Of a stretch of 64,000 nucleotides of DNA, positions 1,536-22,690 are shown piece after piece (position 1 is the first letter of the stretch; every line of letters starts with the position of its first letter). The notes beneath the pieces were generated by a model that made no database searches, was not told the DNA's origin, and worked only from the letters and a program-made list of their open reading frames with translations. Where the stretch lies: positions 1 through 64,000 of IMG/VR virus record IMGVR_UViG_3300048583_000157, one strand, 5' to 3'. This DNA is from a virus. The position numbers and the translations under genes were made by a program.

Positions 1536-3101
1536 TCACATTATGCTGAATGGAACTGGCTCGTCACCAAACGCATCGTTGGAATCTTCTTGACCAGCCG
1601 CAGAATATTCATTCACGCTTGGGTCAACGTTCTCGTAAACCATTTTTCTAGCACCTTCGTCGTAAGATGCCAAGCGCGCCAGAAGTCTACCCACGATCAA
1701 GCATGCACTGATAAGGTCGTCAGTGGAACCATTCTTGGCAGCGAAGCTGCCGCCTCTAGCAACATAGTGCTTAAACTCTGTGAGCAGTGCCGCCGAGTGC
1801 AGTGTCATTCCACCAGTCATGCGCTCAACAAGCTGTTTGATCTGCATGCAGCTTACGAGCTTGGATTTACCCGAGGTAAAGCAGCCGAGCTTTGTTGGGG
1901 AATCGCTGAACAGTTCAACACCATCCAGATACACGCCACCATCTGCAGAGTCATCGTTCTGAATGAGCGCGACAATGGCCTCACCAATACCGTTACGTTC
2001 GAACGACCAAATGACATCAGCCTTCTTGCCGTTGACTGGCTTTCTTAGTTCACGAAGCAGCCACTTGATCTTGGAATACACAAGAGGAATGTTTACGACG
2101 TTCAATCGAAGCTCGGCCACCTGCTCTAGCGATGGGAATTCAAACACCTCGATTGCGGTGAAGTCTTGCTGGTTGCCTGTTGCGGGGTCGACACCAACCA
2201 GATATGTTCCATTGCCAGTAAGCTCTTTGAAGAACTTGAAGCCCATATCCTCTCTGATTGGATGTCTGGCTTTCAGGGAATGGATTCTACGTGAGTCGAT
2301 AAGCAGCGCGTCAGAAGACAGGAATTCGCAATCGAGTTCCTGTCTTGTCTTAACGGGACCAAGCTTACCCAACATCTCTTCATAGTACTCTGGCCCACGC
2401 TCAGGGTGTTGATGCCACATGACCTGGATAGGCACAAACGAATTCGTACCCGCATTTGCACCTGTCCAGATGCTAGCGAATAGGTCAGTGTCTCCGTTAG
2501 GAGTAGAAGTCAGAATGAACTTACCACCAGTGGAAAGAGATGGCGTGATGGATGCCCACATCTCTTCTTGAACGCGACGTGAGATGAATGCGATTTCGTC
2601 GATGAACAGAATGGAAGGCGAGCCACCTCGACCAGTCTTTTCGGAAGTAGCTTCGCACTTGATCTTAGAACCGTTGTCAAACTCGATACTCGTACGGTTG
2701 TAGAATTTGCAGCCAGCCTTTAGCCAGTCTGGAAGTTCCTCATACGCGAACTTGATTCTCGACATGATTTCGGTTGCGTGGTTCATTGCCTTAGAAGCAA
2801 TGACGCAATTCTTGTCTGTCTGGAATAGGCTGAACCACAAAATGTACATAGCCACGACGGTGGTTTTACCCAGCTGTCGGCTAGCGAGAATAACCACATC
2901 CTTGTTTTCGTGGATGCTTTTGACCATGTCGATCTGGTAATCGAACAGCGCAAAAGGAACTGAGCCTTTTGTTGGATGCGCGACCTTGACATAGTTGGTC
3001 AAGAAGTAAATCGGATCGTTGCTACACTTCCTCAGCTCTGAGACAGAGTCTGGAGTATATTCGGATTCGGCGTACGCCCGCTTGAGATACGGATTCTTCA
3101 T
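1536..3101 (-). CDS. 17: Terminase large subunit (gp17-like)
   Basis: ATP-driven motor and headful nuclease that pumps DNA through the portal. Visible motifs: Walker A SRQLGKTT (about 74-81), Walker B ILFIDEIAF (about 164-172), the coupling motif LTSTPNG (about 197-203), and a RNase H-like nuclease centre starting at VGVDPATG (D305) with a later acidic SFERNG. The 521 residues are somewhat shorter than T4 gp17 (610). A late promoter lies about 65 nt upstream. Its usual partner gp16 is not adjacent; the best candidate lies about 9 kb upstream. Confidence 0.95.
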   Translation of the reverse strand: MKNPYLKRAYAESEYTPDSVSELRKCSNDPIYFLTNYVKVAHPTKGSVPFALFDYQIDMVKSIHENKDVVILASRQLGKTTVVAMYILWFSLFQTDKNCVIASKAMNHATEIMSRIKFAYEELPDWLKAGCKFYNRTSIEFDNGSKIKCEATSEKTGRGGSPSILFIDEIAFISRRVQEEMWASITPSLSTGGKFILTSTPNGDTDLFASIWTGANAGTNSFVPIQVMWHQHPERGPEYYEEMLGKLGPVKTRQELDCEFLSSDALLIDSRRIHSLKARHPIREDMGFKFFKELTGNGTYLVGVDPATGNQQDFTAIEVFEFPSLEQVAELRLNVVNIPLVYSKIKWLLRELRKPVNGKKADVIWSFERNGIGEAIVALIQNDDSADGGVYLDGVELFSDSPTKLGCFTSGKSKLVSCMQIKQLVERMTGGMTLHSAALLTEFKHYVARGGSFAAKNGSTDDLISACLIVGRLLARLASYDEGARKMVYENVDPSVNEYSAAGQEDSNDAFGDEPVPFSIM

Positions 3102-3492: not shown

Positions 3493-3927
3493 TTAGCCCT
3501 GACTGCGGGCCAGCTGCTGCCAGATTACCAGCGGAACCTGCAGGTAAACCTTGTGGGTGTTGTCGACCACCTGGACCTGCTCACTGGTTGGGTCAAGGAC
3601 GACCATGTACTTGACACCGTTGGCGCCAGCAGCAGTAGAGAGAATCTTTGGCTCGACTTCGTCTTGCTCAACAGAATCTTCTTCACCTTCCTCATTGACA
3701 TCTTCACCCAGGAAAGGCTTGACCATAGCAATGAGCTCTTCGTCTTCCATTCCACCTGTGAGGTCACGAGTATCGATCTCACGTAGCTTGGTGATGATGC
3801 GAGTAGCTGCCTTGTCACCGTCTAGAGAGTCGGTGTCAGTGAGGTCCATCGCACGATAGATAAGGTCGATGATCTTATCCTTCAGCTGCCCTTCATTGAG
3901 GGTAAGTAGTTCTTGAAGAAGCTTCAT
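3493..3927 (-). CDS. Probable internal head protein with targeting peptide (144 aa)
   Basis: The N-terminus MKLLQELLTLNE ends in an LxE-type site, as expected for gp21 cleavage. The middle is very acidic (EDVNEEGEEDSVEQDEVEP, about 75-93). The C-terminal domain (about 95-144) ends in YLQVPLVIWQQLARSQ, which resembles the end of the 11840-12073 product (MPLKVWKQLVTSA), suggesting a shared domain. Enzymatic function unknown. I infer that it is packaged into the prohead with the neighbouring cargo. Confidence 0.6.
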   Translation of the reverse strand: MKLLQELLTLNEGQLKDKIIDLIYRAMDLTDTDSLDGDKAATRIITKLREIDTRDLTGGMEDEELIAMVKPFLGEDVNEEGEEDSVEQDEVEPKILSTAAGANGVKYMVVLDPTSEQVQVVDNTHKVYLQVPLVIWQQLARSQG

Positions 3928-3953
3928 TTTGAGTCCTTTTGTTTAGATGACAG

Positions 3954-4781
3954 TTATTCTGTCATCTCGTAATTTTCTAGGAAGTACTTTCTAAATTCGT
4001 CCCAACGATTCATTGCGATGAGTAGCACATTGCCACCAACCCAAACCTCTCGGTTTTTGTATTCGCCGATTCCTAGAGTAGCAGTGGTTGCAGATGTCAT
4101 GCCAATTTTCTTCGGCGATAGTGCTTCAAAGATTTCACCCAAGAAGTTATCCATGCTCTTGCTGTCAGCCACATCAAACGCTTTTTCAAATTTCTTTACT
4201 GCCTTCGGGTCTTTCTTGGCAAGTTCATTTGAAAATTGCATGATGGCATTGAAGTTGTCTTTGATTCCCATCATACGAAAGCGATAATTCAAGCTCTCAA
4301 TTGCCATGGTCTCGCCAAACACCTTGATGTCCTTATCCCACATATCTGCTTTAGGGCATATGCCAATACGCGTTTTGTCAAATGGAATAACGACTAGAAC
4401 GGCTGCGTCGCTGGCAGAATAATCTTGCGCAGTCGCTAGGTTGGTAGAGCAGATAAAAGAGCGGCTTCTCTTTGGAAAAGATTTGTAGCCTGGGTGATTG
4501 TCGAAAATGACGGTATAGTGGTTAGAAGTGTTTTGACTCTTTCTTTCGGTGGCCGAAGTGTCAACAACCCATGCGCCAATTTTCGTTGTAACGTTCAGTG
4601 TCTGCTGGGCAGGCGCCTTACTATCACCGCGATAAATCATCTTGTTCGCCAAGATCATTGGGATTGCATTCTTGCATTTGGTCTCAATGATCTTTATTGC
4701 CGCATCATCTGCCGCACGGTCATACTTCGGCTGTTTGCCAGCCGAAGCTTCTAGAAACATCTTGAACGTTTGGTGCGACAT
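3954..4781 (-). CDS. Packaged ADP-ribosyltransferase-like protein (275 aa), divergent copy
   Basis: The leader MSHQTFKMFLEA carries a targeting-type FLE|A site. The following domain fits the R-S-E class of ADP-ribosyltransferases: R51 in MIYRGD, an STS-like CSTN at 111-114 after SRSF, and a candidate catalytic E245 in NREVWVGG. These enzymes move ADP-ribose from NAD to host proteins, as T4 Alt does to RNA polymerase. It is closest to the 10323-11399 product and more distant from the three-copy family at 7185-10316. It overlaps the 4781-7156 gene by one base. Confidence 0.6.
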   Translation of the reverse strand: MSHQTFKMFLEASAGKQPKYDRAADDAAIKIIETKCKNAIPMILANKMIYRGDSKAPAQQTLNVTTKIGAWVVDTSATERKSQNTSNHYTVIFDNHPGYKSFPKRSRSFICSTNLATAQDYSASDAAVLVVIPFDKTRIGICPKADMWDKDIKVFGETMAIESLNYRFRMMGIKDNFNAIMQFSNELAKKDPKAVKKFEKAFDVADSKSMDNFLGEIFEALSPKKIGMTSATTATLGIGEYKNREVWVGGNVLLIAMNRWDEFRKYFLENYEMTE

Positions 4782-7156
4782 TATGCGCCCTTGGACTTTT
4801 TAGCTGCGATCTTTTCATAAGTGATCATTTCGCGACCCTTCATGGAAGGGTTTGCTTTAAGGAACTGCTTTCGTGCATCTTCGCAGGCCGCCTTGGGGTC
4901 TTTTGCCGTTATTTCGTAGATGACATGATCGTGCCCAGTCGGTCCGAATTCAACGGTGACCCTGTACAGATCGCCTTTTTCGACCGACTCGCCAAGAACG
5001 TAGCCCTTCTTCTCATCCATATCCCAAACACCATAGGAACGGTCTTCGTCAGATACTTCAGCAGAAATGGTTCTTACTCCATTCTCAATCTTCGCCTTGA
5101 ACTTCAGCTTGGCAGCTTTCTCAGGGTAAGCGTTCTTGACTGCAGTCTTCCAGGATTCAACGTCCTTCCAAGAGTCATGCGCGTCTTCCTTGAGCTTACC
5201 ACCGTCAACGTCCTCATGAATTACCTGAGGATCGATTCCGCCAATTGACTTCAATGGGTGAAGTGCGAGTCGAGCGCGAAGCTTTTCAGAAAGATCTTTC
5301 TGTAGACCTTCCTTACGTGGCTTGTCTTTGCAATCTGTGTAGAAGGCAACTGTTACTTCGCTATCCTTCTTGAACTTGCCCTTCTTGAGTACGTTGCCGA
5401 TTGGTTCAATGCGGTGAACCTTGCAAGCTATGAGCTCTTCTTCTGCCATGTGGTGCAAGTAATTGTCGGCTTCGTGGATAACCTCGAGCGCCAGCTTACG
5501 GTACTCTTCATCCTTGTTGGGCTTGCCTTCCATGAGAAGAGCTGCGGCCTGACCGATGAGAACTTCTGGATGCTCGTTGACCAAAGCTTCCATATCGGCG
5601 GGAGATAGAGTCCAGAAGCGTGCCTTACCGTATGGAGCGGCTAGTTCATTGGCCTTCTTGAAGTCAACGAGCTGTGCAGCTTCAGATGCTTCAAGTAGAC
5701 GAAACATGGTGCCATGATGAGCGCTTGCGAGGATGTCAAGAGCGCCCATTGCATCTAGCGAATCATCTTCAGTAACGAAATGATGCTTGATGACTTGCGC
5801 GATGTTCTTAGCACCGAGCTCCAAGAAAAGCTCATCAGCGAAGATGGTTGCAATCTCGGGCTCTGTTGCAAGCCAGTTGTTGTAGATTTCACCGAAGCGC
5901 TTCTTGTCCTTGGTAACGGCTGCAAGCTGGTTCATCATGCGCTTTACCATCGGCTTCTCTTCAAAATCGGTAATCCAATCTACTTTGGCAAGCTTCTCAC
6001 CAGCGCGCTTGATAGCTGCGTGGAGTAGGTCTGGAGTCTGTGGAAGGTCTGGAGCCAGTGGCTTTGCTTCTTCCTTCTTTGCTTCCTTGATGGGAGTCTT
6101 GAAAGCTGCGACCAGGAATTCCTTGAAGGTCTCGGCTCCATACTGCTTGAATAGTTCGTCAGCAAGAAGGTCAGTGATTCCGCCGAAGCTATCATTCCAT
6201 TTGTTGTAGATGGCAACAAACTTCTTCTTGTCGCCTGCAACGTCTGATAGTTCTTTTGCCATTGCGATGACGCTCGAACGCACGCCACTCTTTCGACCGT
6301 GAGTAGCGTCATTTAGAGTGCCGTCCTTTTTGGCTGCAGTGAGAGCTGCTGCGATTGCCTTCTTAAGGGTCGACCCACCTACAGCTTCTTCAAGCTTACC
6401 CCAGTTGCTCGTGACATGATGCTCAGCTTCCTTCGCATCATAGAATGGACCTTCAATGTCGATGCCACGACGGTAGTCCTTGTGAATCCAGGACATGATG
6501 TCATCTGGCTTCAGGTACGACATGTAGGTCTGGCCCCAGCGGTACTCAGGCTTACCCTTGTACTGCTTCTCATGCCACTTACCGCCGCCTTCCTTGGTGA
6601 CTAGACCGATCCAGGAGCGCTCTTCATCCTCGTCATAGAACGCGACGTAGAACTTCTGCTGATCGTCTTCATCATCGCCATCTTCGTCAGTCTCTTCATA
6701 GTCCTTCTCAGCTTCCGAAACATCAGACGAGTGGAACGAATGCTCGCCAATTCCGTAGAGCTTGACTACTACAAACTTCTTGTCCTTACCAAAGCGGGTG
6801 ATTTCACCGGTCTGATCCTTGTACTGAACGTTACCAGTGATCTCGACGACATCGCCAATTTCGAGCTGGTCGGCCGTTCGCTGACCGTCTACTGATGGCT
6901 TGTCGCTCGTGTCTTCGATCTCTACATCGTGCAGCGCAGATGCTTCTGAAACCTTCTTACGGGGCGCTTTGCGACCGACCTGAGTAAGGGTTGCATCGCC
7001 TTCAGTGCTTACACGGAGCTCACCGGATTCACCACGCTTGATGACTCCGCCCTGAGCGATTAGGCGCTTGTTGATTTCTACGAAATCGGCGTCGGTGATT
7101 TCCTTGTACTCTTCCTTAACCTGACGCATATTGTGCAGAGAGCTGAGCAACTTCAT
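4781..7156 (-). CDS. Large modular internal or structural protein (791 aa)
   Basis: Unrecognised as a whole. Residues about 97-145 (IGDVVEITGN...GEITRFGKDKKFVVVKL) look like a small KOW/SH3-type barrel, followed by an acidic linker. Two copies of a roughly 85-residue helical unit follow, marked by KKKFVAIYNKWNDSF...ADELF and KKRFGEIYNNWLATE...ADELF. Later come an LLEASEA site that gp21 could cut and an alpha/beta C-terminal part. The N-terminus (MKLLSSLHNM) resembles cargo leaders but has no clear early LxE site. A late promoter lies about 25 nt upstream. It sits inside the cargo operon, so I infer that it is a head-internal protein. Confidence 0.6.
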   Translation of the reverse strand: MKLLSSLHNMRQVKEEYKEITDADFVEINKRLIAQGGVIKRGESGELRVSTEGDATLTQVGRKAPRKKVSEASALHDVEIEDTSDKPSVDGQRTADQLEIGDVVEITGNVQYKDQTGEITRFGKDKKFVVVKLYGIGEHSFHSSDVSEAEKDYEETDEDGDDEDDQQKFYVAFYDEDEERSWIGLVTKEGGGKWHEKQYKGKPEYRWGQTYMSYLKPDDIMSWIHKDYRRGIDIEGPFYDAKEAEHHVTSNWGKLEEAVGGSTLKKAIAAALTAAKKDGTLNDATHGRKSGVRSSVIAMAKELSDVAGDKKKFVAIYNKWNDSFGGITDLLADELFKQYGAETFKEFLVAAFKTPIKEAKKEEAKPLAPDLPQTPDLLHAAIKRAGEKLAKVDWITDFEEKPMVKRMMNQLAAVTKDKKRFGEIYNNWLATEPEIATIFADELFLELGAKNIAQVIKHHFVTEDDSLDAMGALDILASAHHGTMFRLLEASEAAQLVDFKKANELAAPYGKARFWTLSPADMEALVNEHPEVLIGQAAALLMEGKPNKDEEYRKLALEVIHEADNYLHHMAEEELIACKVHRIEPIGNVLKKGKFKKDSEVTVAFYTDCKDKPRKEGLQKDLSEKLRARLALHPLKSIGGIDPQVIHEDVDGGKLKEDAHDSWKDVESWKTAVKNAYPEKAAKLKFKAKIENGVRTISAEVSDEDRSYGVWDMDEKKGYVLGESVEKGDLYRVTVEFGPTGHDHVIYEITAKDPKAACEDARKQFLKANPSMKGREMITYEKIAAKKSKGA

Positions 7157-7181
7157 GGGTAGTTTCCTTTTTGCGATAGCC

Positions 7182-7189
7182 TATTTATT
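7182..7189 (-). promoter_or_regulatory. T4-type late promoter
   Basis: Minus-strand AATAAATA lies about 25 nt upstream of the 791-residue gene and overlaps the end of the preceding gene. It gives the downstream half of the cargo operon its own late promoter. Confidence 0.6.
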
Positions 7190-7952
7190 CGTTACTAAGC
7201 TGATTGAAACGTTTTGCGAATCTCTCAAAATCTGGTGAAGACGGATCAATCAGATAATACTTCTTGCAAGACAGCATGACTTCTGTGGATTCCCGGCTGC
7301 CCTTACCATGTACGTAGTCGGCAAGTCCATCTGAAATATACGGCTCTTGTTGTTCCAACCATGCTGTAACGCATTCAAACCATTTGTCAAAATCGTCCAA
7401 TGCCTTACGAGTATTAGCCTTAGATGACAGCTCCTCAGCGCTAAGAATGTCTTCCAGAACCCCAGTGTCTTTCAGGTCATCAATGATGTCATCATACAGC
7501 TCTGCGTGATTGTACTTTTTACTACCCTGGAACATTACATATGCGTCAGTGACGATGTCAGAATACACATACTTGAATTTGCCAACAGGGAACAGTAGCT
7601 GCGGTTGACCATAGTTGCTAGCTTGAGTTTTTGACGTGGCGCAGAATACACCTCTAGACCTAAAAGGGAACCCAAAATGCTGAATAAAGTGTTCGTCGAG
7701 CAGCGCATGTAAATCGGGAAGAGAATCTTTAGGCTTTCTGACCCTATCGCCACTGAATTCGGACATGAGACCGCTAAAGCCTTCGCCCATAGCACGATAA
7801 AGAACTCCGCTAGGTGTAGAGCTACCAATGCCCTGTGGAAGCCTTGGATTGAATTCCGTTATAAACGTCTTACAGTCGGCAAATACTTTCTCCGCTGCTT
7901 CTTCAGGAGTTAGCGTCGGTGCTTCGGCGACAAATTGCTTGAAGGTAATCAT
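7185..7952 (-). CDS. Packaged ADP-ribosyltransferase-like protein (255 aa), copy 1
   Basis: I chose the ATG at 7952 because it overlaps the upstream stop as ATGA and yields the leader MITFKQFVAE|A, a T4-style capsid-targeting peptide. Catalytic candidates are R53 in LYRAM, the FCATSK segment at 103-108 (STS-like) and E224 in TEVMLSCKKYY. The motif RKPKDS (72-77) and the segment FPVGKFKYVYS (121-131) are shared with the two tandem paralogues. Inference: it is injected with DNA and modifies host proteins. The assignment rests on motif order, not on a profile search. Confidence 0.65.
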   Translation of the reverse strand: MITFKQFVAEAPTLTPEEAAEKVFADCKTFITEFNPRLPQGIGSSTPSGVLYRAMGEGFSGLMSEFSGDRVRKPKDSLPDLHALLDEHFIQHFGFPFRSRGVFCATSKTQASNYGQPQLLFPVGKFKYVYSDIVTDAYVMFQGSKKYNHAELYDDIIDDLKDTGVLEDILSAEELSSKANTRKALDDFDKWFECVTAWLEQQEPYISDGLADYVHGKGSRESTEVMLSCKKYYLIDPSSPDFERFAKRFNQLSNE

Positions 7953-8680
7953 TTGTACCAACCATCCACTTTATTTTTGAGCGTATCCATTGACATGATA
8001 TCTGGCGTAAGGTACTTTCCACCAGAGGCTTTTAGTTTTTCAATGTGGCGAGCGCCGATCGGGTTAGAGATTGCCGAAGAGAAGAATGTCTGCGCCTTCT
8101 TGAAAGCCTTCATCATGACTTCATCGGTGTACTCGTCGCCAGAATTCTTTACGTCTACGAAGAACGAAACCTTACCTCTGAGGAATTCGACATTGGCTTC
8201 AGTTCTCTCATGAACCTTCTTGACGAAATCAAGATCGACCTGTCTCTTAGTTGTAGCGTTTCGCTTCTCTACTCGTGCTAGAGCATCTTCCAAAGATGTG
8301 TTGACGTACACGATACCAACATCGTATCCAAGAGACTCAAGGATGCCCATACGGTGCAAAAGATTGGATGCATCGTTAGAAGTACCATCTACGAAGAGAG
8401 GCAGCATGCCATTGAGATAAGCGGACAGGCTGTTCTTCGTGATTCGAAGCGCCGTGTCTCGGTACTCTTTTGCCCAAGTAGTGGGATCGACCGCGCCACC
8501 CGACTTTGCAGCAAGATACTCGGTAGCCTTGTCAGTGTTTACTATTCTCGGGCCGACGCCGCCGCTAAGAGTACTGACAGTGTATGATTTACCTGAGCCG
8601 GGGATACCGATAACAAAGACGGCTTTGAAGATGCCTTTGTCATTGATGCCCTCATTTAGGAATTCTTTGAAAGTTTTCAT
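7949..8680 (-). CDS. Packaged P-loop kinase, zeta-toxin-like (243 aa)
   Basis: The leader MKTFKEFLNE|G is almost the T4 internal-protein targeting peptide. It is followed directly by a Walker A motif GIPGSGKS (25-32). The order of elements (P-loop, VNTDKATEYL, FVDGTS, VYVNTSLEDALARVEKRN) matches small ATP-dependent kinases such as zeta toxins or polynucleotide kinases. The substrate cannot be told. It overlaps the genes on both sides by 4 nt, in the middle of the ADP-ribosyltransferase cluster. A head-packaged kinase is unusual. Confidence 0.7.
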   Translation of the reverse strand: MKTFKEFLNEGINDKGIFKAVFVIGIPGSGKSYTVSTLSGGVGPRIVNTDKATEYLAAKSGGAVDPTTWAKEYRDTALRITKNSLSAYLNGMLPLFVDGTSNDASNLLHRMGILESLGYDVGIVYVNTSLEDALARVEKRNATTKRQVDLDFVKKVHERTEANVEFLRGKVSFFVDVKNSGDEYTDEVMMKAFKKAQTFFSSAISNPIGARHIEKLKASGGKYLTPDIMSMDTLKNKVDGWYK

Positions 8681-9513
8681 TCTTTCTTGCCTTTCATTAG
8701 CAGGTTTAGATGATGCGCGAATTCACCAGGGAATTCATGAGTGTTGGATACAGCTCCAGAGGAAGAGAACACGGTGTAGTACTCATCGCACTGAAGCATA
8801 ACCTCTGCCCTGCCGCCCGACCACTCATCTAGCTGCAACAGCTGCTTTAGACCAGTATCTCTGTAAGGATCGTGCGCCTCTAGCCAGAGGTCAACCAAAT
8901 CGAACCATGCGTTCTTGTCTTGATCGTACGTCTTGGTGTTTAGAAAATCTTTGTAGTGCTCTTGCGTCGGTTCGCCATCATCTTCGCGCCATCCCGACAT
9001 AAATTCTTCATGGAGAACATCGTGCATATCTTCGAAAATTACAGATTCCATATGTGGCGCAGATGCGCCACCCCGCTCAAAAGCAGTAAATGCATCTGGA
9101 ATACTTGGCGACCAGATGTATTTGAACTGCCCAACAGGAAACACTAGATTGATAGCGCCATAGCTTCTAGCAACTGACTTTGCGCCGGTGCAGAACACAC
9201 CCTTAGAACGATATGGATAACCGAATGTGCGAATAAAGTAATCGTCTAGCAGCTCATGCAGGTCTCTAGAAGAATCTTTGGGGCCTCTAATACGAGTAGC
9301 ATCCCACTTGATAATTCCGGAAGCAAGGTCAGCAGCAGTTGGACGCATGCCGCGCAAGAGCGCGTTCTTTGCGTGTGCCGTGCTGGAGGTGCTGATGTCG
9401 AAACCACTCTGCTTCAGATATGGCTGACAATTTTTGAACACTAGTTTAGCAGCTTCCTCGGGGTCATGAGAAGCTACAACTGTCTCGTTTAGGAAACTCT
9501 TGAACGTGATCAT
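8677..9513 (-). CDS. Packaged ADP-ribosyltransferase-like protein (278 aa), copy 2
   Basis: The leader MITFKSFLNE|T is followed by the same domain as its neighbours: R54 in LLRGM, RGPKDS (76-81), GVFCTGAKS (105-113), FPVGQFKYIWS, and the putative catalytic E237 in RAEVMLQCDEYY. Start and stop overlap the flanking genes by 4 nt, so the three-copy set is tightly coupled. Divergence from the other copies suggests different host targets rather than recent duplication. The STS element is degenerate (FCTGAK). Confidence 0.65.
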   Translation of the reverse strand: MITFKSFLNETVVASHDPEEAAKLVFKNCQPYLKQSGFDISTSSTAHAKNALLRGMRPTAADLASGIIKWDATRIRGPKDSSRDLHELLDDYFIRTFGYPYRSKGVFCTGAKSVARSYGAINLVFPVGQFKYIWSPSIPDAFTAFERGGASAPHMESVIFEDMHDVLHEEFMSGWREDDGEPTQEHYKDFLNTKTYDQDKNAWFDLVDLWLEAHDPYRDTGLKQLLQLDEWSGGRAEVMLQCDEYYTVFSSSGAVSNTHEFPGEFAHHLNLLMKGKKE

Positions 9514-10316
9514 TTATCTTCCATTAGATTATTGAGGTACCCAGCAAAACGATTTGAAAAGTCAGAGCTGACTATTGGCACGAGGTAATACTTTTCGCAT
9601 TGAAGCATGATCTCGTTCTGACCGATACCATTACCATGCAGCATGCTGTGCAAATCGTGATCCTGGTATGGGTGTTCTTTATCTAGCCAATCGTTTAGAA
9701 GATCCCACCATTCTTCCGTGGCGTTCGAAGAGTTGCGTCCGAATTTGTCGCTAAGGAAATTTTCGTAATGCATTTCCACTTCGCGTTCAGAAACATCGCC
9801 ACCCTCAAACTCGTCCATGAATTCTTTGTGAAGCTTTTTCTCGAAGCTAGCCATGATAGTTCTCTTCAATCCCCAGCCGCCTTTGGGATCTAAGTCAACA
9901 TACGCATCTTCAATCTTCTTAGAGAAGACATACTTGAAATTACCAACAGGGAAGATGAGGCAAGTCTGCCCATAGCTTTCAGCAATCGATTCCTTAGCAG
10001 AGCAGAACACGCCCTTAGAACGATATGGATAACCGAATGTGTACTTGAAATACTCGTCAAGCAAATCATGAAGCTTTTTAGAAGAATCCTTCGGCTCGCG
10101 CATGCGAGTACCGGACACTTCAGACATGCGATGCTGTTTCACATCGTGCATGCCGCGGTACAGGGCCCCTAGTGCGTAGTTGATGTCCGGCTTAGTGAAG
10201 AAGAATCCACTTTCCTTTAGGAAAGGCTGACAATTTTCAAACACAAGCTTAGCGGCAACTTCTGGCGCTGAAGTTGCCGACTGAATTTCTAGTAGGTATT
10301 GCTTGAACGTAATCAT
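9510..10316 (-). CDS. Packaged ADP-ribosyltransferase-like protein (268 aa), copy 3
   Basis: The leader MITFKQYLLE|I is followed by R54 in LYRGM, REPKDS (73-78), GVFCSAKES (102-110), FPVGNFKYVFS and E235 in QNEIMLQCEKYY. It aligns along its full length with copies 1 and 2. Inferred role: injected modifier of host proteins using NAD. It overlaps the downstream gene by 4 nt and follows the larger variant at 10323-11399 after a 6 nt gap. Confidence 0.65.
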   Translation of the reverse strand: MITFKQYLLEIQSATSAPEVAAKLVFENCQPFLKESGFFFTKPDINYALGALYRGMHDVKQHRMSEVSGTRMREPKDSSKKLHDLLDEYFKYTFGYPYRSKGVFCSAKESIAESYGQTCLIFPVGNFKYVFSKKIEDAYVDLDPKGGWGLKRTIMASFEKKLHKEFMDEFEGGDVSEREVEMHYENFLSDKFGRNSSNATEEWWDLLNDWLDKEHPYQDHDLHSMLHGNGIGQNEIMLQCEKYYLVPIVSSDFSNRFAGYLNNLMEDK

Positions 10317-10322
10317 ATACCG

Positions 10323-11399
10323 TTATTTGTGGCGTGAGACGAAGTCATCAACGTCAAGATGATCACCAGTCTTTTTGTAGCCCTTTGCGTTTAGAATCTT
10401 CTTCATTTGTAAAAGGTTCTTAGTGTCCATAGAAATAGCAATGCACTCTCCAGAGAACCAGCATTCTTTGTCTCTAGCCTTCAGTGCTGCTCCACCAGCA
10501 CTGACTACTTTTCCGCCAGGAGCAACAGCAGTAAAGATCAATGCTGCCATTCCAGTGAATCTCTTTTTGCTATTGAGCCCGGCGAATATGTTGAAGAACT
10601 TAGCAAATTCCTTTTTATATGCATAGTCTCCAGACTTTACAAGCTCAAAGATTTCGCGTCGCATCATATCGGCTTGGCCTCCGTGATTCGCGACGTAATC
10701 GTAACGATATGAGTCGCCCGCGTTCTGGGAAAGCTTTTGGCCCTTCGGCGTTTTGCCGATTATTACATGGCGGCGGATGTTGTAGTCCAACTTGGGAACA
10801 TGTATGGCCGCCAAAAATGCAAACTTGTTGGCTTCAATTGCCGCAAGTCTAGCGTCGAGTGCGTCTAGGTCGTCAAATTTACTATCCTTAAAACCGAACG
10901 CGTTCATTACCTCTGTCAGATAGTCCGTAACACCAGTAACCGAATCGTCACTATCAAACAGCGTTGATTTAATTTTCTGGGCGAAGAAGTCGGCTGAATC
11001 TGATATCGCTACTTGCGTGCCATCATACGGGAAAATTGCATATGCCGCCCCATGTGAAAAGCTATCTGCCGTACCATGATCAGTTGAGCAGATAAGAGAA
11101 TTTGACCGCGAAGGAATATGCATAGAATGCACCGACGCATCGTGTGCAAGCTGATAAAGATTATTGGAGTCCTTGGAGGTTCTAAAGCTGTCTGAGCTAT
11201 CGATGTATGATGCATCGCCCAACGCAGTTCCACTGAAGCCCCTGAAGATGCCATCACCCTTTAGGAATGCAGCAAGTGAATCAGCACAGTTCTTCTCTAT
11301 CATACTAACTGCAGCATCAAGCTTTAATGGCTTCTGTATCCACTTCTGCTGAACGTTTTTCTTGCCGGCTTCTTCTAGGTACTGCTTGAACGTGATCAC
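10323..11399 (-). CDS. Packaged ADP-ribosyltransferase-like protein (358 aa), long variant
   Basis: The leader MITFKQYLEE|A is followed by R53 in IFRGF, RTSKDS (73-78), SRSNSLICSTDHGTADSF with the STS-like CSTD at 104-107, and candidate catalytic acids E312 and E318 in KECWFSGECIAI. It is related to the 3954-4781 product and has about 90 extra residues, including a hydrophobic stretch (MAALIFTAVAPGG, about 284-296). A late promoter lies about 30 nt upstream, making it the first gene of the main cargo operon. Confidence 0.6.
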   Translation of the reverse strand: MITFKQYLEEAGKKNVQQKWIQKPLKLDAAVSMIEKNCADSLAAFLKGDGIFRGFSGTALGDASYIDSSDSFRTSKDSNNLYQLAHDASVHSMHIPSRSNSLICSTDHGTADSFSHGAAYAIFPYDGTQVAISDSADFFAQKIKSTLFDSDDSVTGVTDYLTEVMNAFGFKDSKFDDLDALDARLAAIEANKFAFLAAIHVPKLDYNIRRHVIIGKTPKGQKLSQNAGDSYRYDYVANHGGQADMMRREIFELVKSGDYAYKKEFAKFFNIFAGLNSKKRFTGMAALIFTAVAPGGKVVSAGGAALKARDKECWFSGECIAISMDTKNLLQMKKILNAKGYKKTGDHLDVDDFVSRHK

Positions 11400-11427
11400 G
11401 ATGTGGACCTGCTGGTGGTTAACGGAG

Positions 11428-11435
11428 TATTTATG
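11428..11435 (-). promoter_or_regulatory. T4-type late promoter for cargo operon
   Basis: Minus-strand CATAAATA about 30 nt upstream of the start at 11399, overlapping the stop of the GNAT gene. It should drive at least the genes down to 7185 in the late phase, when proheads are assembled, which fits packaging of the products. Confidence 0.65.
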
Positions 11436-11838
11436 CGCTGTGATCTTTCTTGGACCAGAACGCCTGACCTAGCGGTGTTAGCATATCAGATTTGCGAATG
11501 CTGTTGCCAAGCTCACGAGCAAACTTGTAGAGTTCAGTAGCGAGACCCATACGACGGTACTTCTTCTCAACTTTCAGGTCGATAGCTTCAAGGAAGCCGT
11601 CCTTCTCTACAAAGTTGACTCGACCTACCATAGCGCCGTGAGTGTTCAACGCTTCGACTCTGAACTGCTTGCTCTTGAAAGAGGGCTTCGCATTAAGCTC
11701 AAGATGACCAGCCTTCGCTACGAGAGTGAAGGTGCCCATTGATGTCTCAATCTCTTTCTTCTTCTCATAGCCTTTCCAGAAGACGTCATCATTGACCTTC
11801 TCTGAAAATAGCTGGTTGAATTCTTTGAACGTGAACAC
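11431..11838 (-). CDS. Packaged GNAT-type acetyltransferase (135 aa)
   Basis: The leader MFTFKEFNQLFSE|K is of the targeting type. The rest is a compact GNAT fold: strand IDLKVEKKYRR (86-96) leading into the acetyl-CoA pyrophosphate loop RRMGLA (95-100) and the helix TELYKFARELG. GNAT enzymes acetylate amines or protein lysines. The acceptor is unknown. It is short for the family, and the second half after the CoA-binding helix is minimal. It lies 1 nt from the upstream gene. Confidence 0.7.
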   Translation of the reverse strand: MFTFKEFNQLFSEKVNDDVFWKGYEKKKEIETSMGTFTLVAKAGHLELNAKPSFKSKQFRVEALNTHGAMVGRVNFVEKDGFLEAIDLKVEKKYRRMGLATELYKFARELGNSIRKSDMLTPLGQAFWSKKDHSA

Positions 11839-11839
11839 G

Positions 11840-12073
11840 TTACTTCATCAGCTTTGGTGGGAATGAAGCGCTAGTAACAAGCTGCTTCCAGACTTTAAGA
11901 GGCATCGATGCTCTGATCGACTGCTCACCATCTAGAAGATGAACGTTCTTGTCTTCATCACACTCGACTCTGAACTCGTCTGCTTGGGCAAGCAGAAGCG
12001 GCCAGGTGCCTTCCTCTTCCTCAACAACGGAAGTAGAAACAGACATCGAGAGTAGGTCTTGAATAAGCTTCAT
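11840..12073 (-). CDS. Small putative internal head protein (77 aa)
   Basis: The ATG at 12073 was chosen over an upstream one at 12115 because it follows AGGAAC and yields the leader MKLIQDLLSM, which resembles MKLLQELLTL at the start of the 3493-3927 product. The C-terminus (MPLKVWKQLV) also resembles that protein's end, so the two are probably a long and a short member of one family. An EEEEG stretch near residues 18-22 could hold the processing site. Function unknown. Confidence 0.55.
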   Translation of the reverse strand: MKLIQDLLSMSVSTSVVEEEEGTWPLLLAQADEFRVECDEDKNVHLLDGEQSIRASMPLKVWKQLVTSASFPPKLMK

Positions 12074-12084: not shown

Positions 12085-12426
12085 TTATTTGTGTTGGGCG
12101 CCGAGGCAGTGCCAAACTTCATGGCCGACATGGTAGAGAGTATCGCGATCATCAAAGTCTCTTGGACGAACGGCGTACACTTCGCAGACTGTAATATCTT
12201 CAGGTCTGGAACGTGCGCATCCGCGATATACGGAGTTTTGATCTAGACCTAGAGACTTGCACTTCTCGTCAACCTTGGTCTCAGAAACCCAGGTGACAGC
12301 GATAGTCGTAGTAGTGATCCGATCCTTTGAAGTGGTATCGTACATCTTGCCGCTAGGCTCACACGATACGAGCAGGAAAATCGCAAGAACGATGAATACG
12401 CCGATGAGTGTCTTCTTGAATTCCAT
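12085..12426 (-). CDS. Predicted lipoprotein with HExxH motif (113 aa)
   Basis: A lysine-start signal peptide with a hydrophobic core ends in the lipobox LVSC (C22), so the mature protein is probably lipid-anchored in the envelope. Near the C-terminus, GHEVWHCLGAQH contains HEVWH (102-106), the zinc-binding signature of many metallopeptidases. Three other cysteines could form disulfides. Family knowledge is limited to the motifs; peptidase activity is inference. It sits between the probable small terminase and the cargo genes. Possible roles: envelope modification or exclusion. Confidence 0.6.
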   Translation of the reverse strand: MEFKKTLIGVFIVLAIFLLVSCEPSGKMYDTTSKDRITTTTIAVTWVSETKVDEKCKSLGLDQNSVYRGCARSRPEDITVCEVYAVRPRDFDDRDTLYHVGHEVWHCLGAQHK

Positions 12427-13822: not shown

Positions 13823-15154
13823 TTACCCACCGCCTCCGATAAAGCTTGAAACCGTTCTACCTAGGAAATTTCCGCCGATTGCATTGTCTGCGATTGGCGG
13901 ACGATTAGGAGCAACGATGCCAACTGAAACACCACGACCAGCAAGAGCGAGTGTACGCGATGCATTTGTACCAAGCGTCCCGCCGATTGTAGAGATGGCA
14001 TTTGCTAGAGCACCGCCGGCAATGCCACCCATACCATTTCGGTAGAGAGCATTCGTGACAGCGGTCTGAACCAGTCTGCCACCTTGATTTGCAATGATGC
14101 CGAGGAATGGAGACATTGCTCCGCCACCGCCGCCACCAAGGCTTACTGGTCCGCGTTGGTTAGGACCAATGACAAGCGAGCCGTCTCTATCGCCGAGGAT
14201 GTCATTCATTTCCATGAAGCCATCGCCATCCTGTTCCATCTCATCTACATAGAGACCAGTCTTGATGTGAAGCGCGTCATAGTCGAAGGTGCAGGAAATC
14301 TGCTGCGGCTCAGACGTGGCGTCGTAGTCATGATCTGGCAGTTCGAAACTGTCAAGACGCGGATTGGTGAACGTGAATACGTTAGCCCTGATCGCACGAC
14401 GAATAGCAGTCTTAGCAAGCGTTCCGTCTGAGCGATCAAGATAGTACTGCTCGATCTTCATTGAGCGTAGAACGTTCTTCTGTGAACCGAGCTCGCCAAG
14501 TACACCACGCTGAGAGGTGTCGAACTGAGATAGGTCGCGACTGAATGCGAAGCCGTTATTCTCTAGGTCCGAGCCTGCCGTATATTCTTGACGGTGAATT
14601 GGCGCAAGAAGCTGTAGGTACGTGTTGATGAATGAGAGAGCGTTGTTCGCTACGTCATCATACATCTTGAAGCTCAGCGGTTCGTGCTGAACTCTACGAA
14701 GCATTTTGGTTCTGAAGTTGTAGTAGTTGAATTCGGTGTAGTCGAATTTGAACTTCGGCATCTCGATAGACTTGACAAGGAAGCTCAAGTTTCGATTGAG
14801 AACATTCAGAACGTTTGGTCCCAGCTGGTTGGCGATCTTAGCAACTTCGGTATCGAATTCGAAGGAGACCTTGAAGAGGAAGCCGTTCTTAGGGTCAAAG
14901 CCACCAACACCAGAAGCCAGAGCCTGTGCGTAGTTTACGGTGCTCCAGATTCCGTTGTAGTCGGTTGTGACCTGATCGAAGTCAACGATTCGATTGTCAC
15001 CACCATTGGCGTTGTTGATTCCGCCGATAGAACCCGAGTTAAAGACGCCGCTCAGAATACCCTGAGCTTGGTTGTTTACAGCCGCACCGAACGTCTGATA
15101 AGCCTGCGCTTCTAGCGCAACGCCGGTGTTTCTGAGAATGCCTGAGATGTCCAT
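13823..15154 (-). CDS. 54: Baseplate tail-tube initiator, gp54-like (443 aa)
   Basis: The central region (about 95-270) has tube-protein character: FKVSFEFDTE, LNRNLSFLVKSIEMPKFKFDYTE and NYYNFRTKMLRRVQHEPLSF, resembling the tail-tube fold of gp19, gp48 and gp54. Since gp48 is clearly encoded at 50092-51195 and gp19 at 16978-17568, gp54 is the best remaining match. The last about 110 residues are Gly/Ala-rich and low complexity, and T4 gp54 is shorter (320). It has its own late promoter about 35 nt upstream. It could instead be another tube-like adaptor. Confidence 0.55.
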   Translation of the reverse strand: MDISGILRNTGVALEAQAYQTFGAAVNNQAQGILSGVFNSGSIGGINNANGGDNRIVDFDQVTTDYNGIWSTVNYAQALASGVGGFDPKNGFLFKVSFEFDTEVAKIANQLGPNVLNVLNRNLSFLVKSIEMPKFKFDYTEFNYYNFRTKMLRRVQHEPLSFKMYDDVANNALSFINTYLQLLAPIHRQEYTAGSDLENNGFAFSRDLSQFDTSQRGVLGELGSQKNVLRSMKIEQYYLDRSDGTLAKTAIRRAIRANVFTFTNPRLDSFELPDHDYDATSEPQQISCTFDYDALHIKTGLYVDEMEQDGDGFMEMNDILGDRDGSLVIGPNQRGPVSLGGGGGGAMSPFLGIIANQGGRLVQTAVTNALYRNGMGGIAGGALANAISTIGGTLGTNASRTLALAGRGVSVGIVAPNRPPIADNAIGGNFLGRTVSSFIGGGG

Positions 15155-16977: not shown

Positions 16978-17568
16978 TTACAGGTTACCGCTAAGAGCGG
17001 TACCATAGCCCTGACCGGTGAGCACTTGACGTGCGTGGTCGAAGCGAAGTGAAAGTTCAATGGTAGCAGCGTCAGACGATTCGTAGGAGAGGTCGCCGTA
17101 GTTTGCATTCTTAATGAAGCAACCTTCGATGAGCCACTTTTCTACAACGCCTTCGTTACCGTCTAGCTGTTCAAGAGTCAGACCAAACTTGTAGTCCGAA
17201 CCGGTTGCTGCAGAGTTGAGCCACTGGCCAGGAAGATCACCACCAATCAAGCGCTGCTGAGTTTCAAGCTGACCTTGAACAGCGGCAGATGCAAGACCCG
17301 TCATGTCGTCTTCAACTGTCAGAGTCATTTCGCTCCACGTGTACTTACCAGCGACATAAGCCGTTGAGTTGTAGCGGTGAATTGGAATGTCTGCGAAGTC
17401 GAGTGTAGGGCGCTGAACGTTGGTTGCCTGGCGAGTCAGGTCTCGGCCTGATACCCCTGGCACCAGACGAGCTAGACCCTGGAATGTTACCTGCCAGCGA
17501 TACTTCTGCTTAGGGTGCAGAATACCGAAGCCGGCCTGTGGTACGCCCATCTGTGAAAGAGTAGCCAT
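16978..17568 (-). CDS. 19: Tail tube protein (gp19-like, 196 aa)
   Basis: Forms the inner tube of the contractile tail. It has the standard gp19 pattern: YRWQVTFQGLARLVPGVSGRDLTRQ near the start (in parts), RPTLDFADIPIHRYNS, WSEMTLTVEDD, and KWLIEGCFIKNANYGDLSYESSD near the C-terminus. The length is close to T4 gp19 (163) with about 30 extra residues. It follows a late promoter about 50 nt upstream and lies next to the sheath, as in T4. Confidence 0.9.
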   Translation of the reverse strand: MATLSQMGVPQAGFGILHPKQKYRWQVTFQGLARLVPGVSGRDLTRQATNVQRPTLDFADIPIHRYNSTAYVAGKYTWSEMTLTVEDDMTGLASAAVQGQLETQQRLIGGDLPGQWLNSAATGSDYKFGLTLEQLDGNEGVVEKWLIEGCFIKNANYGDLSYESSDAATIELSLRFDHARQVLTGQGYGTALSGNL

Positions 17569-18097: not shown

Positions 18098-19945
18098 TTA
18101 CGGCAGTGAAGCACCGGTCGACAATACGCGGATTGGGATGTAGATGAATTCTGCGGCCTTGACAGGCTTAAGAGCTACGTCCATGATCATCTGGTTGTTG
18201 TCGATGACAAAGTCGGTGTTGTTGGAGCGATCGCAAAGGGTTACGAAGTCGTACAGACCGCGCTTAGCGAGTACGTCATTCAGGAAACCGTCAGCCGAAG
18301 CCTTGAGGTTGTCGCGAGTGATCTTGTCGTTAGGCTCGAAGACGAATGGGAAAGCACCCTTACGAAGCTGGCGCTTGATGTACATAACCAAGCGAACTAC
18401 GTTTACACGATCAAGAGCAGAAGCTGCGGCAGCCGAAGTCTTCTGTCCCCAGATGATGAGACCCTGTCCTGGGAAGAACACGATTGGGTTGATGTTCTTG
18501 AATGCTTCGTAGAGCGAATCGCGCTGACCCTGGTTGAGGTTAGCTTCAACGAAGGTGGTAGCGGTACCAAGAGTACCGTTGACGTAGCCAACTGCTGCAA
18601 CGCCCGTTACCGAACCACGTGAGACACCAGCAGGAGCAAACCAGACATAGGACTGATTGTCGCTGTAAGCGTAGGTGCGTAGAGCAATACCGGATGGAGC
18701 CACAACGACTTCAGCACCGTCGAGGTTCGAAGCCTTACCCCATGGGTAGTAGTAAGCAACGTTCGTACCGGTCTGGCGACCAGAAGTAAGAGCCCAGTTT
18801 GCAGTCTGCTCAGCAGTCTGGTTGGACGGTGTGTCTGCGATAACGAATGCTTCGTCATTGATGTCTACCGAGAGAGCGAGCAGCTCATCAACAACTTCTG
18901 GGTAACCAGGGCAGACGATGAGGTTGTACTCGTAGATTTCCGAGCGGACTTCGCTGTTGCTGTTGATTGCTGCAGAAAGAGCGGTTGCGATAGCAACACG
19001 CTTAGCAGCATCGTTGGCGCCGAGTGGGTTGAAGAGGTTGACTTCCGACAGAGCGATCTGGAACTCGTCACCCGAAACAAAGGCAGTCGAACCAGCGGTT
19101 ACCAGGAAGGTAATGTGCTGTAGACCGTCAGTGAATGCGGTACCAACAGTACCCGAACCAAGTGGACCAGAGGTCGAGCCGGTAACGGTGAATGCTGTTG
19201 GCGAGGTGAAGACAATGACGATGGTCTCAGCTACTGCGCCGGTGAGGGCTTCAATTGCTGTGACTGTGCCGTTGCCAGTACCAGAGTAGCTCGATGGAGC
19301 ATACACGAGATCGAAGGTGAAGTAGTCGCCACTGGAGAATGCAGTGCCACCAGCGGTAACGGTGAAGTTGACCTTGTTGGAAGTGAATGCAACGCCGACC
19401 GTACCGGTACCGATGATACCAGATACAGAGCCCTGAACCGTGAATGCGGTCGCAGAGGTGAAGATTACGTCAATGCTTTCTGGCTTAACGAAAGCAGAAG
19501 TTGCCGTCACAGAACCCAGAGTACCGTTGCCGATACCTACGCGTGTGATCGTTCCGGCTACTGGAGTACCAGCACCGAAGAAGGTTTCTGCTTCGTCAGC
19601 AAGGTCGATGTTTGCACGAACGACATAAGCAACGTTGCCAATACCGAGGTACTGGTTAAGTGCGAAGAGGCCGTATTCGTTACGAGCATCGCCATGGAAC
19701 TGATTGCCAGAGCCGTCTTTCCAGAAGTGTGGAATTCCGTAGAGCTGGGTGCTCTGACCGATAGAGGTGACAGTACGAACTACGTCGTGTTCAGTTGTAC
19801 CGGTAGCGATAGTAACGCCGTCCGGCTGCGTCTTGTTAGCACGAGATGCTACAAACATCAGCGGCACCGTTGGGGATGCAGCAGGAATGTAGAACGATTC
19901 ATTGATAACGGTAACTGATACGCCCGGGGATACTAGCGTGGCCAT
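18098..19945 (-). CDS. 18: Tail sheath protein (gp18-like, 615 aa)
   Basis: Contractile sheath subunit. The N-terminus ATLVSPGVSVTVINES and C-terminal elements (RLVMYIKRQLRKGAFPFVFEPND, DNLKASADGFLNDVLAKRGLYDF, PVKAAEFIYIPIRV, in parts) are typical of gp18. Two similar about 75-residue beta domains (residues 139-213 and 225-300) are inserted in the outer part. Each follows the pattern FTVxGSxSGxxGxGTVGxAFT...FxVTAGxTAFxSGDxF. They would decorate the tail surface. A late promoter lies about 75 nt upstream. Confidence 0.95.
   Translation of the reverse strand: MATLVSPGVSVTVINESFYIPAASPTVPLMFVASRANKTQPDGVTIATGTTEHDVVRTVTSIGQSTQLYGIPHFWKDGSGNQFHGDARNEYGLFALNQYLGIGNVAYVVRANIDLADEAETFFGAGTPVAGTITRVGIGNGTLGSVTATSAFVKPESIDVIFTSATAFTVQGSVSGIIGTGTVGVAFTSNKVNFTVTAGGTAFSSGDYFTFDLVYAPSSYSGTGNGTVTAIEALTGAVAETIVIVFTSPTAFTVTGSTSGPLGSGTVGTAFTDGLQHITFLVTAGSTAFVSGDEFQIALSEVNLFNPLGANDAAKRVAIATALSAAINSNSEVRSEIYEYNLIVCPGYPEVVDELLALSVDINDEAFVIADTPSNQTAEQTANWALTSGRQTGTNVAYYYPWGKASNLDGAEVVVAPSGIALRTYAYSDNQSYVWFAPAGVSRGSVTGVAAVGYVNGTLGTATTFVEANLNQGQRDSLYEAFKNINPIVFFPGQGLIIWGQKTSAAAASALDRVNVVRLVMYIKRQLRKGAFPFVFEPNDKITRDNLKASADGFLNDVLAKRGLYDFVTLCDRSNNTDFVIDNNQMIMDVALKPVKAAEFIYIPIRVLSTGASLP
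19046..19273 (-). repeat. Beta-domain repeat 2 within the sheath gene
   Basis: Encodes sheath residues about 225-300 (GNGTVTAIEAL...TAFVSGDEFQIAL). It aligns with repeat 1 just upstream and with domains in gp14, gp6 and the last wedge gene. Confidence 0.7.
19307..19531 (-). repeat. Beta-domain repeat 1 within the sheath gene
   Basis: Encodes sheath residues about 139-213 (GNGTLGSVTAT...TAFSSGDYFTFDL). Shared motif elements are AFTV-GS-SG, GTVG-AFT and FTVTAG-TAF-SGD-F. Confidence 0.7.
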
Positions 19946-20067: not shown

Positions 20068-20817
20068 TCACGTACCGTCGATTTCAGTAGTACCCCAGTC
20101 GAAGCCAGTACGGAACGGCTGCTGGTTTCCATCCTCATCGAATTCGTTGATGACGAAGCCGTCCATATCACCGATACGAATGAAGATCTTGCGTACGACT
20201 TCATCTCTGATGTCGAGCGGAGACGAGATGTAGATAGGCATTTCGAAGGTCAGCGACCATACGAGCACTCGTCTGTCTCCACCTGGCGGCATGTTCTCTT
20301 CATTGTTGACGCCCGTCAGCATGACTTCTGAAATCTTCGTCCAGTCAAATGCTGCGTCAGTCGTCTGAATCTGAAGCTGAGGATCGAATAGTACAAGAAG
20401 CTGCTCGAGCATCTGGTGAAGCTGCTGAGTGTTAGACGCGAACATCGAGAGTTCAATGCTCATGATGTACGGAATAGGCATGACTCGAATGACGCTCTTC
20501 AGATCGTCTGGGTAGACGCCACCCTGAGGAAGGTAGACACGACGATCGACTACGCCAACACCCTTACGAGCCTGGGCCATGCTGAGACCAGTCATGGTAG
20601 CTGCGAGCATTGGTAGCGAGAGTGGTTTGTTCTGAGTATTACCAGCTTCGATAGCAGCTACCACTCGATCTCTGCTGCCGATTCGAATAGGTACTGTGAT
20701 GAACTCTGGCACATCGCATTCACCCTTACCAGTCTGAACTTGTAGACCAACAAAGATGTTACAGAACTGGAGCAGGTACTTTCGTAGCTGTCCTTGGTAG
20801 TAGAAATATGGAATCAC
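20068..20817 (-). CDS. 15: Tail sheath stabiliser and completion protein (gp15-like, 249 aa)
   Basis: Forms the terminator ring at the head end of the tail that joins the neck. The pattern fits T4 gp15: PYFYYQGQLRKYLLQFCNIFVGLQVQ at the start, VPIRIGSRDR, MPIPYIMSIELSMFASN, DRRVLVWSLTFEMPIYISSP (in parts). Length 249 compared with 272 in T4. Its start overlaps the amidoligase-like cargo gene by 4 nt, and a possible late promoter lies inside that gene at 20981-20988. Confidence 0.85.
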   Translation of the reverse strand: MIPYFYYQGQLRKYLLQFCNIFVGLQVQTGKGECDVPEFITVPIRIGSRDRVVAAIEAGNTQNKPLSLPMLAATMTGLSMAQARKGVGVVDRRVYLPQGGVYPDDLKSVIRVMPIPYIMSIELSMFASNTQQLHQMLEQLLVLFDPQLQIQTTDAAFDWTKISEVMLTGVNNEENMPPGGDRRVLVWSLTFEMPIYISSPLDIRDEVVRKIFIRIGDMDGFVINEFDEDGNQQPFRTGFDWGTTEIDGT

Positions 20818-21935: not shown

Positions 21936-22690
21936 TAGTCTTCGTCGTAAAGGTCGGTCCAGAGCTTGACTGCTCCGCGGTATTTAAGGAATTTCGTCTT
22001 GAACCAGACGGTGGATTCGACGTCCCACCCATAGGTGAAGTCGTCGTGACCGTATGCATCACAGTGCGTACCGTCGAAGTGTCGTGCTAGAATGTCCCAG
22101 GGGAATCGCATGCGCAAATCTGATCGATGGCTAAGATCGTAATCTGTTCTCTTCTTTGTAGTCGACTTGTCATACATGTCAGCCCACTCGGCAAAGTCTC
22201 CAGCCGATCTGTCGCCTAGATTGAACACCAGTGGATTGTCAACGATCTCAAACAAGTAGCCATAGTCAGTCTGCCAATCTGGGAATCTCTGCTTTACCAA
22301 TTCATACCATTCAGATGTGTAGGTACCTTTAGCCTTTTCTCGTGCCGAGCTTGTCCAGAATCCGCTACGTGGCTTGTTATCGCCCGGCGGAGAATCGTGA
22401 TAGTCGTGAAGCAGAGGAGGTGCTTCTTCAGATAGAATGGATTCGTTCGTCTTCTTAAAGTGGCGAGCTCTAGCAAGCGCTGAAACACGGAGCGCTACTT
22501 TAGGGTCACGACGCTTAGGAACGAAGAGCTGTAGCTTGCTGTTCTCGCGGATGTTCCACGCGGCATATTTCTGCATGTCACGAAGGGCGGCGAGCCCCGA
22601 CTTATCTTCCCAGCGATCGGGAAGGTCAGGCTCTTTAGGCTCTACCTTCTTCTCTGCTTCTTCAAGGTACTCTTTGAACGACTTAGTCAT
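21935..22690 (-). CDS. Packaged protein, possible ADP-ribosyltransferase fold (251 aa)
   Basis: The leader MTKSFKEYLEE|A is very close to the T4 internal-protein peptide, and a second site ILSEE|A lies near residues 85-89. The rest contains HDYHDSPP, SGFWTSSAREK (STS-like), GYLFEI and GWDVESTVWFKT with a possible catalytic Glu. That order is compatible with a divergent ADP-ribosyltransferase, but I see no clear first-position Arg, so this is tentative. It shares one base with the amidoligase-like gene. Confidence 0.5.
   Translation of the reverse strand: MTKSFKEYLEEAEKKVEPKEPDLPDRWEDKSGLAALRDMQKYAAWNIRENSKLQLFVPKRRDPKVALRVSALARARHFKKTNESILSEEAPPLLHDYHDSPPGDNKPRSGFWTSSAREKAKGTYTSEWYELVKQRFPDWQTDYGYLFEIVDNPLVFNLGDRSAGDFAEWADMYDKSTTKKRTDYDLSHRSDLRMRFPWDILARHFDGTHCDAYGHDDFTYGWDVESTVWFKTKFLKYRGAVKLWTDLYDED

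Follow-up and report, generated by a model that had tools for sequence, protein, structure and literature searches.

Introduction

Capsid-targeting sequences (CTS), head-packaged ADP-ribosyltransferases and polyvalent head effectors are already known (PMC3012670, PMC9026906, PMC9503650), and the leader was earlier proposed to be a general route by which T4-like phages package proteins of diverse kinds (PMC9026906). Amber-suppressor work on the T4 internal protein IPIII mapped capsid targeting mainly to leader residues 4 and 7; residues 8 and 10 were assigned to processing (PMC9026906). Several ejection proteins of the SPN3US/phiKZ type have propeptides of over 100 residues (PMC5694885). For the Agrobacterium phage Atu_ph07, mass spectrometry of purified virions detected 29 of the 46 products of CDS 31-76, a cluster-wide count (PMC6102473). 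No leader-gene block comparable to the one described here was found in the literature examined on capsid-targeting sequences.

The DNA analyzed here, referred to as the window, is 64,000 bases long, out of an IMG/VR virus record of 71,167 bases, and has a GC content of 0.50. The record is a fragment, and the cargo count given below covers the window only.

Results and Discussion

Phage affiliation of the window

Head and tail genes of the T4 type were present in the window, including the following:

1536-3101: large terminase
16978-17568: tube gene
18098-19945: sheath gene
36500-38107: portal gene

The closest cultured relatives of the capsid protein were giant phages, i.e., XacN1 (52% identity), Stenotrophomonas CM1/RAS14 (50%) and the PA5oct group (43%). 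When 24 kb of the window were compared with cultured phages by megablast, no match was obtained. The sole tRNA call made by ARAGORN, at 14273-14362, was discarded because it was located inside a coding region and had an odd anticodon.

Leader-bearing genes

A preliminary description of this DNA had reported at least seven adjacent genes starting with nearly the same peptide and had listed seven leaders. All seven were found, on the minus strand, and six of them form a contiguous run (7185-11838); the remaining one, 3954-4781, lies apart from the others, separated from the run by a gene for a 791-aa protein (4781-7156) starting MKLLSSLHNM. An eighth leader of the TFK type, absent from that list, was detected at 21935-22690. 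The genes are given below, with the predicted cut indicated by an arrow:

3954-4781, minus strand: leader MSHQTFKMFLEA, MSHQTFKMFLE↓A, Glu one residue early; main cargo family, 275 aa; phrog_12810 E 2e-35
7185-7952, minus strand: leader MITFKQFVAE↓A; main cargo family, 255 aa; phrog_11975 E 5e-21
7949-8680, minus strand: leader MKTFKEFLNE↓G; P-loop kinase, 243 aa
8677-9513, minus strand: leader MITFKSFLNE↓T; main cargo family, 278 aa; phrog_11975 E 2e-27
9510-10316, minus strand: leader MITFKQYLLE↓I; main cargo family, 268 aa; phrog_11975 E 9e-29
10323-11399, minus strand: leader MITFKQYLEE↓A; main cargo family, 358 aa, GTG start; phrog_12810 E 2e-14
11431-11838, minus strand: leader MFTFKEFNQLFSE; GNAT-type acetyltransferase, GTG start; predicted cut FSE↓K, three residues late
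21935-22690, minus strand: eighth leader of the TFK type, MTKSFKEYLEEA, MTKSFKEYLEE↓A; 251-aa protein

The range 3493-11838 also includes two genes without a TFK leader, 4781-7156 and 3493-3927. Neighboring genes of the block overlap by four bases at 7949-7952, 8677-8680 and 9510-9513, suggesting translational coupling. A predicted lipoprotein, whose signal has an LVSC lipobox, is encoded just upstream of the block (12085-12426).

The frequency of the leader was assessed by searching the DNA for M-x-T-[FY]-[KQ]-x-[FY], a pattern that constrains residues 1-7 only and leaves residues 8 and 10 free. It had four matches in the window against 0.01 expected, and none of 100 shuffles reached this number; the two leader genes with a GTG start escaped it because the pattern requires ATG. 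As a positive control, the same pattern was run on the whole T4 genome and gave four matches: ipI, ipII and ipIII, which are all three known T4 internal proteins of the CTS type, and gp61.1. The T4 gene 61.1 (NC_000866 18966-19130), located beside gene 61.2, starts MKTFKEFIKED; this start is CTS-like, and the product may be an unrecognized internal protein. The pattern had no match in Atu_ph07, HTVC008M, Melnitz-3, Phosso, Vibrio 2.275.O, XacN1, RAS14 or PA5oct, the last three being those cultured phages whose capsid proteins are closest (43-52% identity). In GAP32 and SCTP-2, three matches were observed, which had no Glu10 and ran into a stop codon within about a dozen codons, and these were read as chance.

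Leaders of the T4 CTS type span about 10-19 residues. At the positions defined by T4 genetics, the aromatic residues 4 and 7 were exactly placed in six of the seven window leaders; they were shifted by two in 3954-4781 and, in the eighth leader (21935-22690), by one. The aliphatic residue 8 together with Glu 10 was found in five of the seven, the exceptions being 3954-4781 (FLE↓A, one early) and 11431-11838 (FSE↓K, three late). T4 IPI itself carries such a leader in a longer form (MKTFKEFTSTTTPVSTITEA). Among 59 distinct leaders from related contigs, every one had L, I, V or M at residue 8, and residue 10 was Glu in 53, with Glu at residue 11 in five of the other six; binomial values for these 59 leaders are descriptive only because the sequences are related.

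Next, codon identity at the amino acids shared by the window leaders was 0.61, against 0.57 expected from the codon usage of the genome. The synonymous codons are no more alike than usage predicts, indicating that selection maintains the leader peptide; the synonymous sites look saturated, with the peptide unchanged. An origin of the leaders by recent copying was rejected by this comparison. The bodies of the paralogues, meanwhile, are only 17-44% identical to that of 9510-10316, and the leader is near-constant. In both AF2 models generated (9510-10316 and 3954-4781), the leader was the least confident region, as expected for a removable peptide.

Cargo proteins behind the leader

The proteins following the leaders had been described as otherwise unrelated, and as transferases, a kinase and an acetyltransferase. 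Our analysis showed instead that five of the seven (3954, 7185, 8677, 9510 and 10323) are diverged members of one paralogous family. Its members have in common the Arg of a YRG motif, the stretch RSxSxFC and, invariant in a 51-sequence alignment, one Asp and one Glu, the latter close to the C-terminus; such strongly conserved polar residues suggest that the members are enzymes. No match was found for this family in Pfam or among PDB sequences, and a Foldseek search of the PDB with two AF2 models had no fold match. These models, of 9510-10316 (pLDDT 89, first residues least confident) and 3954-4781 (pLDDT 87, residues 1-4 and 6-13 below 50), were confident, and since they match no solved structure, the transferase label is unproven. 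Among viral structures, the matches were to proteins of this same kind from Atu_ph07 and further large phages. By eye only, the motif order YRG ... RSxSxFC ... E recalls ADP-ribosyltransferases. This label was not confirmed by Pfam, PDB sequences, the comparison of AF2 models with the PDB, or hhalign, which gave a probability of about 1% or less to T4 ModA, ModB and Alt. The fold of the main family is treated here as unrecognized because no sequence, profile or fold test confirmed a match.

The two enzyme assignments outside this family were upheld. The kinase 7949-8680 has a Walker A motif and was above the Pfam cutoffs for both AAA_33 (E 1e-11) and Zeta_toxin (E 7e-11); its PDB relatives were L-seryl-tRNA(Sec) kinase (E 1e-8, the best) and PezT (E 7e-4), and its leader-bearing relatives in IMG/VR are 50-56% identical. 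The protein of 11431-11838 scored 18.6 bits for Acetyltransf_1, under the cutoff of 20.7, and is assigned to the GNAT type because a 60% identical orthologue, L008:4374-4772, scored 28.4, above the cutoff. TFK..[FY] and a following Glu were present in all four members of the GNAT family.

Related contigs were retrieved from IMG/VR with the kinase as query, which gave 24 loci; a scan of IMG/VR with the cargo protein 9510-10316 found no relative. About 100 leader-bearing proteins were clustered, and these formed one large cluster of 57 that includes the main family of the window, a kinase cluster of 14 and a GNAT cluster, along with an amidoligase-like cluster, a protein-kinase-like cluster without a Pfam match, and a number of small clusters and singletons, a few of which are probably spurious matches. 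The number and kinds of leader genes vary widely across the related contigs, and contig L003 has nine of them adjacent. Two proteins similar to Pfam DUF6267, L017:2383-3576 and L022:5466-6659, have the CTS-like leader MLTFQSFLKEE, and DUF6267 proteins may be packaged in the head.

The cargo of the window has one domain per gene, and the only fusions were gp53 of Atu_ph07 and L015:3516-4802. In the latter, a CTS-like leader is followed by a cytidylyltransferase-like domain (GRFNPPTTGH) and then by the same kinase, in an order resembling that of NadR; in the window, a gene of the cytidylyltransferase-like kind stands by itself at 49354-50085. In the leader-bearing kinases, xE followed by G/S and a short conserved stretch containing Asp directly precedes the kinase domain, and the same junction is located before the internal kinase of gp53 (SEVTE↓GVNDKH) and of the L015 protein (DLITE↓GVYDPG). 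This may mean that the fusions are cut apart in the head, or else that the junction is part of the kinase fold. As a tentative and rather doubtful extension, the main family could represent phage-injected enzymes of a new fold, diversified into large tandem arsenals in several giant T4-related lineages, with the prohead protease also separating fused cargo in the head at [L/I/V]xE↓G.

Prohead protease, head genes and late promoter-like elements

The features of the window related to head maturation and late expression are the following:

35566-36180, minus strand: gp21-type prohead protease (Peptidase_S77); PF03420 86.7 bits, cutoff 27; phrog_207 E 6e-58
32501-33391, minus strand: probable gp22-type scaffold/core protein, adjoining the major capsid gene; phrog_10922 E 8e-24, no function assigned
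31225-32478, minus strand: major capsid protein (gp23 type); phrog_138 E 1e-89; putative propeptide cut MRELRE↓TAAAG
11428-11434, minus strand: ATAAATA, T4-late-promoter-like, 29 nt before the start of 10323-11399
7182-7188, minus strand: ATAAATA, T4-late-promoter-like, 26 nt before the start of 4781-7156

The protease has the His (GELNHP) and the Ser (GVSSRG) in common with T4 gp21 and is the predicted leader-removing enzyme. A short second S77 protein of the gp21-like kind, encoded at 42460-42867, has Tyr in place of the catalytic His and has lost the catalytic Ser; it is probably an inactive paralogue. The product of 32501-33391 resembles that of the XacN1 gene preceding the XacN1 capsid gene, and at the place equivalent to the putative cut, the XacN1 capsid protein has IMLAE↓TASAG.

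The T4 late promoter has ATAAATA as its core, and this element was found 18 times in the window against 2.8 expected, an enrichment that occurs in a phage of 50% GC. Sixteen of the 18 copies lie within 150 nt upstream of a gene on the same strand, including the terminase, tube, sheath, scaffold and protease genes. The exact T4 late promoter TATAAATA was not enriched in the window (1 against 0.46 expected). At the level of sequence, these elements are consistent with the block being expressed late, along with the head genes.

A possible second class of leader

Seven genes of the window start M[KR]L, in several cases followed by LNE or LTE, and resemble the leader of T4 Alt, MELITELFDE. These starts could be a second class of head-targeting leader:

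3493-3927, minus strand: possible second-type leader MKLLQELLTLNE↓G, compared with that of T4 Alt; 144 aa
4781-7156, minus strand: possible second-type leader MKLLSSL..., on the 791-aa protein inside the block
11840-12073: M[KR]L start
20814-21935, minus strand: possible second-type leader MRLNEFLTE↓A
22687-23358, minus strand: possible second-type leader MKLSELHQLNE; product resembles that of 23355-23987
23355-23987, minus strand: possible second-type leader MKLHELLNE↓V
30683-31105: M[KR]L start

The strict form M[KR]LxxL was found in four genes against 0.08 expected, a test that was chosen post hoc and is taken as a lead only. A 525-aa protein of contig L006 starts MKLLSSFVKLEE and may be compared with the product of 4781-7156.

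Proposed mechanism and alternative explanations

Direct observations are the leaders, their conservation, the protein families, the late elements, and the protease gene including its catalytic residues. On this basis, we regard it as very likely that the leaders serve as T4-type capsid-targeting sequences, and as probable that the cargo is packaged, the leader cleaved and the proteins injected. The reading of the leader as a sorting signal, put forward in the preliminary description, is well supported: the leaders match the T4 CTS positions 4, 7, 8 and 10, the pattern finds ipI-ipIII, and additional backing comes from the gp21-type protease, the T4-late-like elements and the presence of the leader on further clusters in relatives. 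Counting against it are the displaced Glu in two of the seven leaders (3954-4781 and 11431-11838) and the lack of pattern matches in XacN1, RAS14 and PA5oct.

Late in infection, the block would be transcribed from the T4-late-like promoters together with the head genes. During prohead assembly, the aromatic leader residues 4 and 7 would dock the protein on the scaffold core, as T4 genetics suggests, and the S77 prohead protease would cut after [L/I/V]xE near residue 10, releasing the mature protein inside the head. The cargo, i.e., five members of the phage-only family, the P-loop kinase, the GNAT protein and possibly more proteins with the second type of leader, would remain with the DNA, and once injected would act on the host before phage gene expression, most likely in anti-defence or host takeover.

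It is unlikely that the leader packages these proteins for head assembly or DNA condensation, as is partly the case for T4 IPIII, and not as injected effectors. Such a role would be in line with the location of the cargo genes among head genes and with the T4 IPIII mutant, in which heads assemble at about half the rate and the burst is about 40% of normal (PMC9026906); however, the kinase and GNAT folds and the conserved polar residues of the main family suggest enzymes, and the wide variation in the number and kinds of members between related contigs is what would be expected of accessory effectors. A signal that directs the proteins elsewhere, for instance to the tail, to a replication compartment or to the host membrane, is very improbable: the leader is modeled as a low-confidence helix, and short N-terminal helices can target membranes, but it fits the leader of the T4 internal proteins at the four positions defined by genetics, and the prohead protease consensus stands at its end. 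That the shared N-terminus reflects only the common ancestry or gene conversion of tandem duplicates, with no sorting role, is hardly credible, because even though five of the seven genes are paralogous, four of them in a tandem row interrupted by the kinase alone, the kinase and GNAT families of other origin carry the same leader, which stays near-constant while the window paralogues drop to the identities given above, its synonymous codons vary to the extent predicted by usage, and the main family bears another leader in Atu_ph07.

With the leaders read as capsid-targeting sequences, the phage probably delivers, together with its DNA, a set of little-understood proteins into the cell. The locus points to a large CTS-type arsenal of internal proteins in an uncultured T4-related group, whose packaging, cleavage and injection we infer. 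Injection before any gene expression corresponds to the stage where host defences must first be met. Being recognizable in the sequence by itself, the leader would be a practical means of listing phage-injected proteins, and most of those listed belong to a family without a recognized fold or activity.

Comparison with known systems

The leaders resemble those of T4 IPI-IPIII (MKTYQEFIAE) in length, in the aromatic residues 4 and 7, the aliphatic residue 8 and Glu 10; as in T4, a gp21-type protease is encoded in the same genome, and one DNA pattern detects both leader sets. T4 has three small basic CTS proteins, whereas the proteins found here are larger, include a kinase and a GNAT protein, and are encoded in a tandem block. 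The earlier proposal of general loading (PMC9026906) thus appears here as a large, expanding arsenal that includes enzymes, in an uncultured group. The second gene set, M[KR]LxxL, resembles the leader of T4 Alt, a head-packaged ADP-ribosyltransferase; searches by sequence, profile and fold gave no link between the main family and T4 Alt, ModA or any solved ADP-ribosyltransferase. Polyvalent proteins have several effector domains per polypeptide, and the window cargo does not fit this description. As in the ejection proteins of the SPN3US/phiKZ type, the proteins would be packaged in the head and the propeptide removed by the prohead protease, but the leaders are of about 10 residues here, against the much longer propeptides of several of those proteins.

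In Atu_ph07, ten consecutive genes (AUZ94865-AUZ94874, gp53-gp62) encode the main cargo family, each product starting M[RK]WxxL[NTI]E; the numbering follows the Atu_ph07 paper and was checked against gp2, gp4, gp5 and gp70. These genes sit within CDS 31-76, the cluster mentioned in the Introduction, and this location lends the packaging of the cargo support by position. They share with the window the cargo family, the kinase and a common short leader ending in Glu, and gp53 is a domain of the cargo family fused to the kinase. The leader itself is different, M[RK]WxxL[NTI]E in Atu_ph07 against M[IK]TFKx[FY]LxE in the window, and such a lineage-specific leader on the same cargo is as predicted if the leader co-evolves with the core and the protease.
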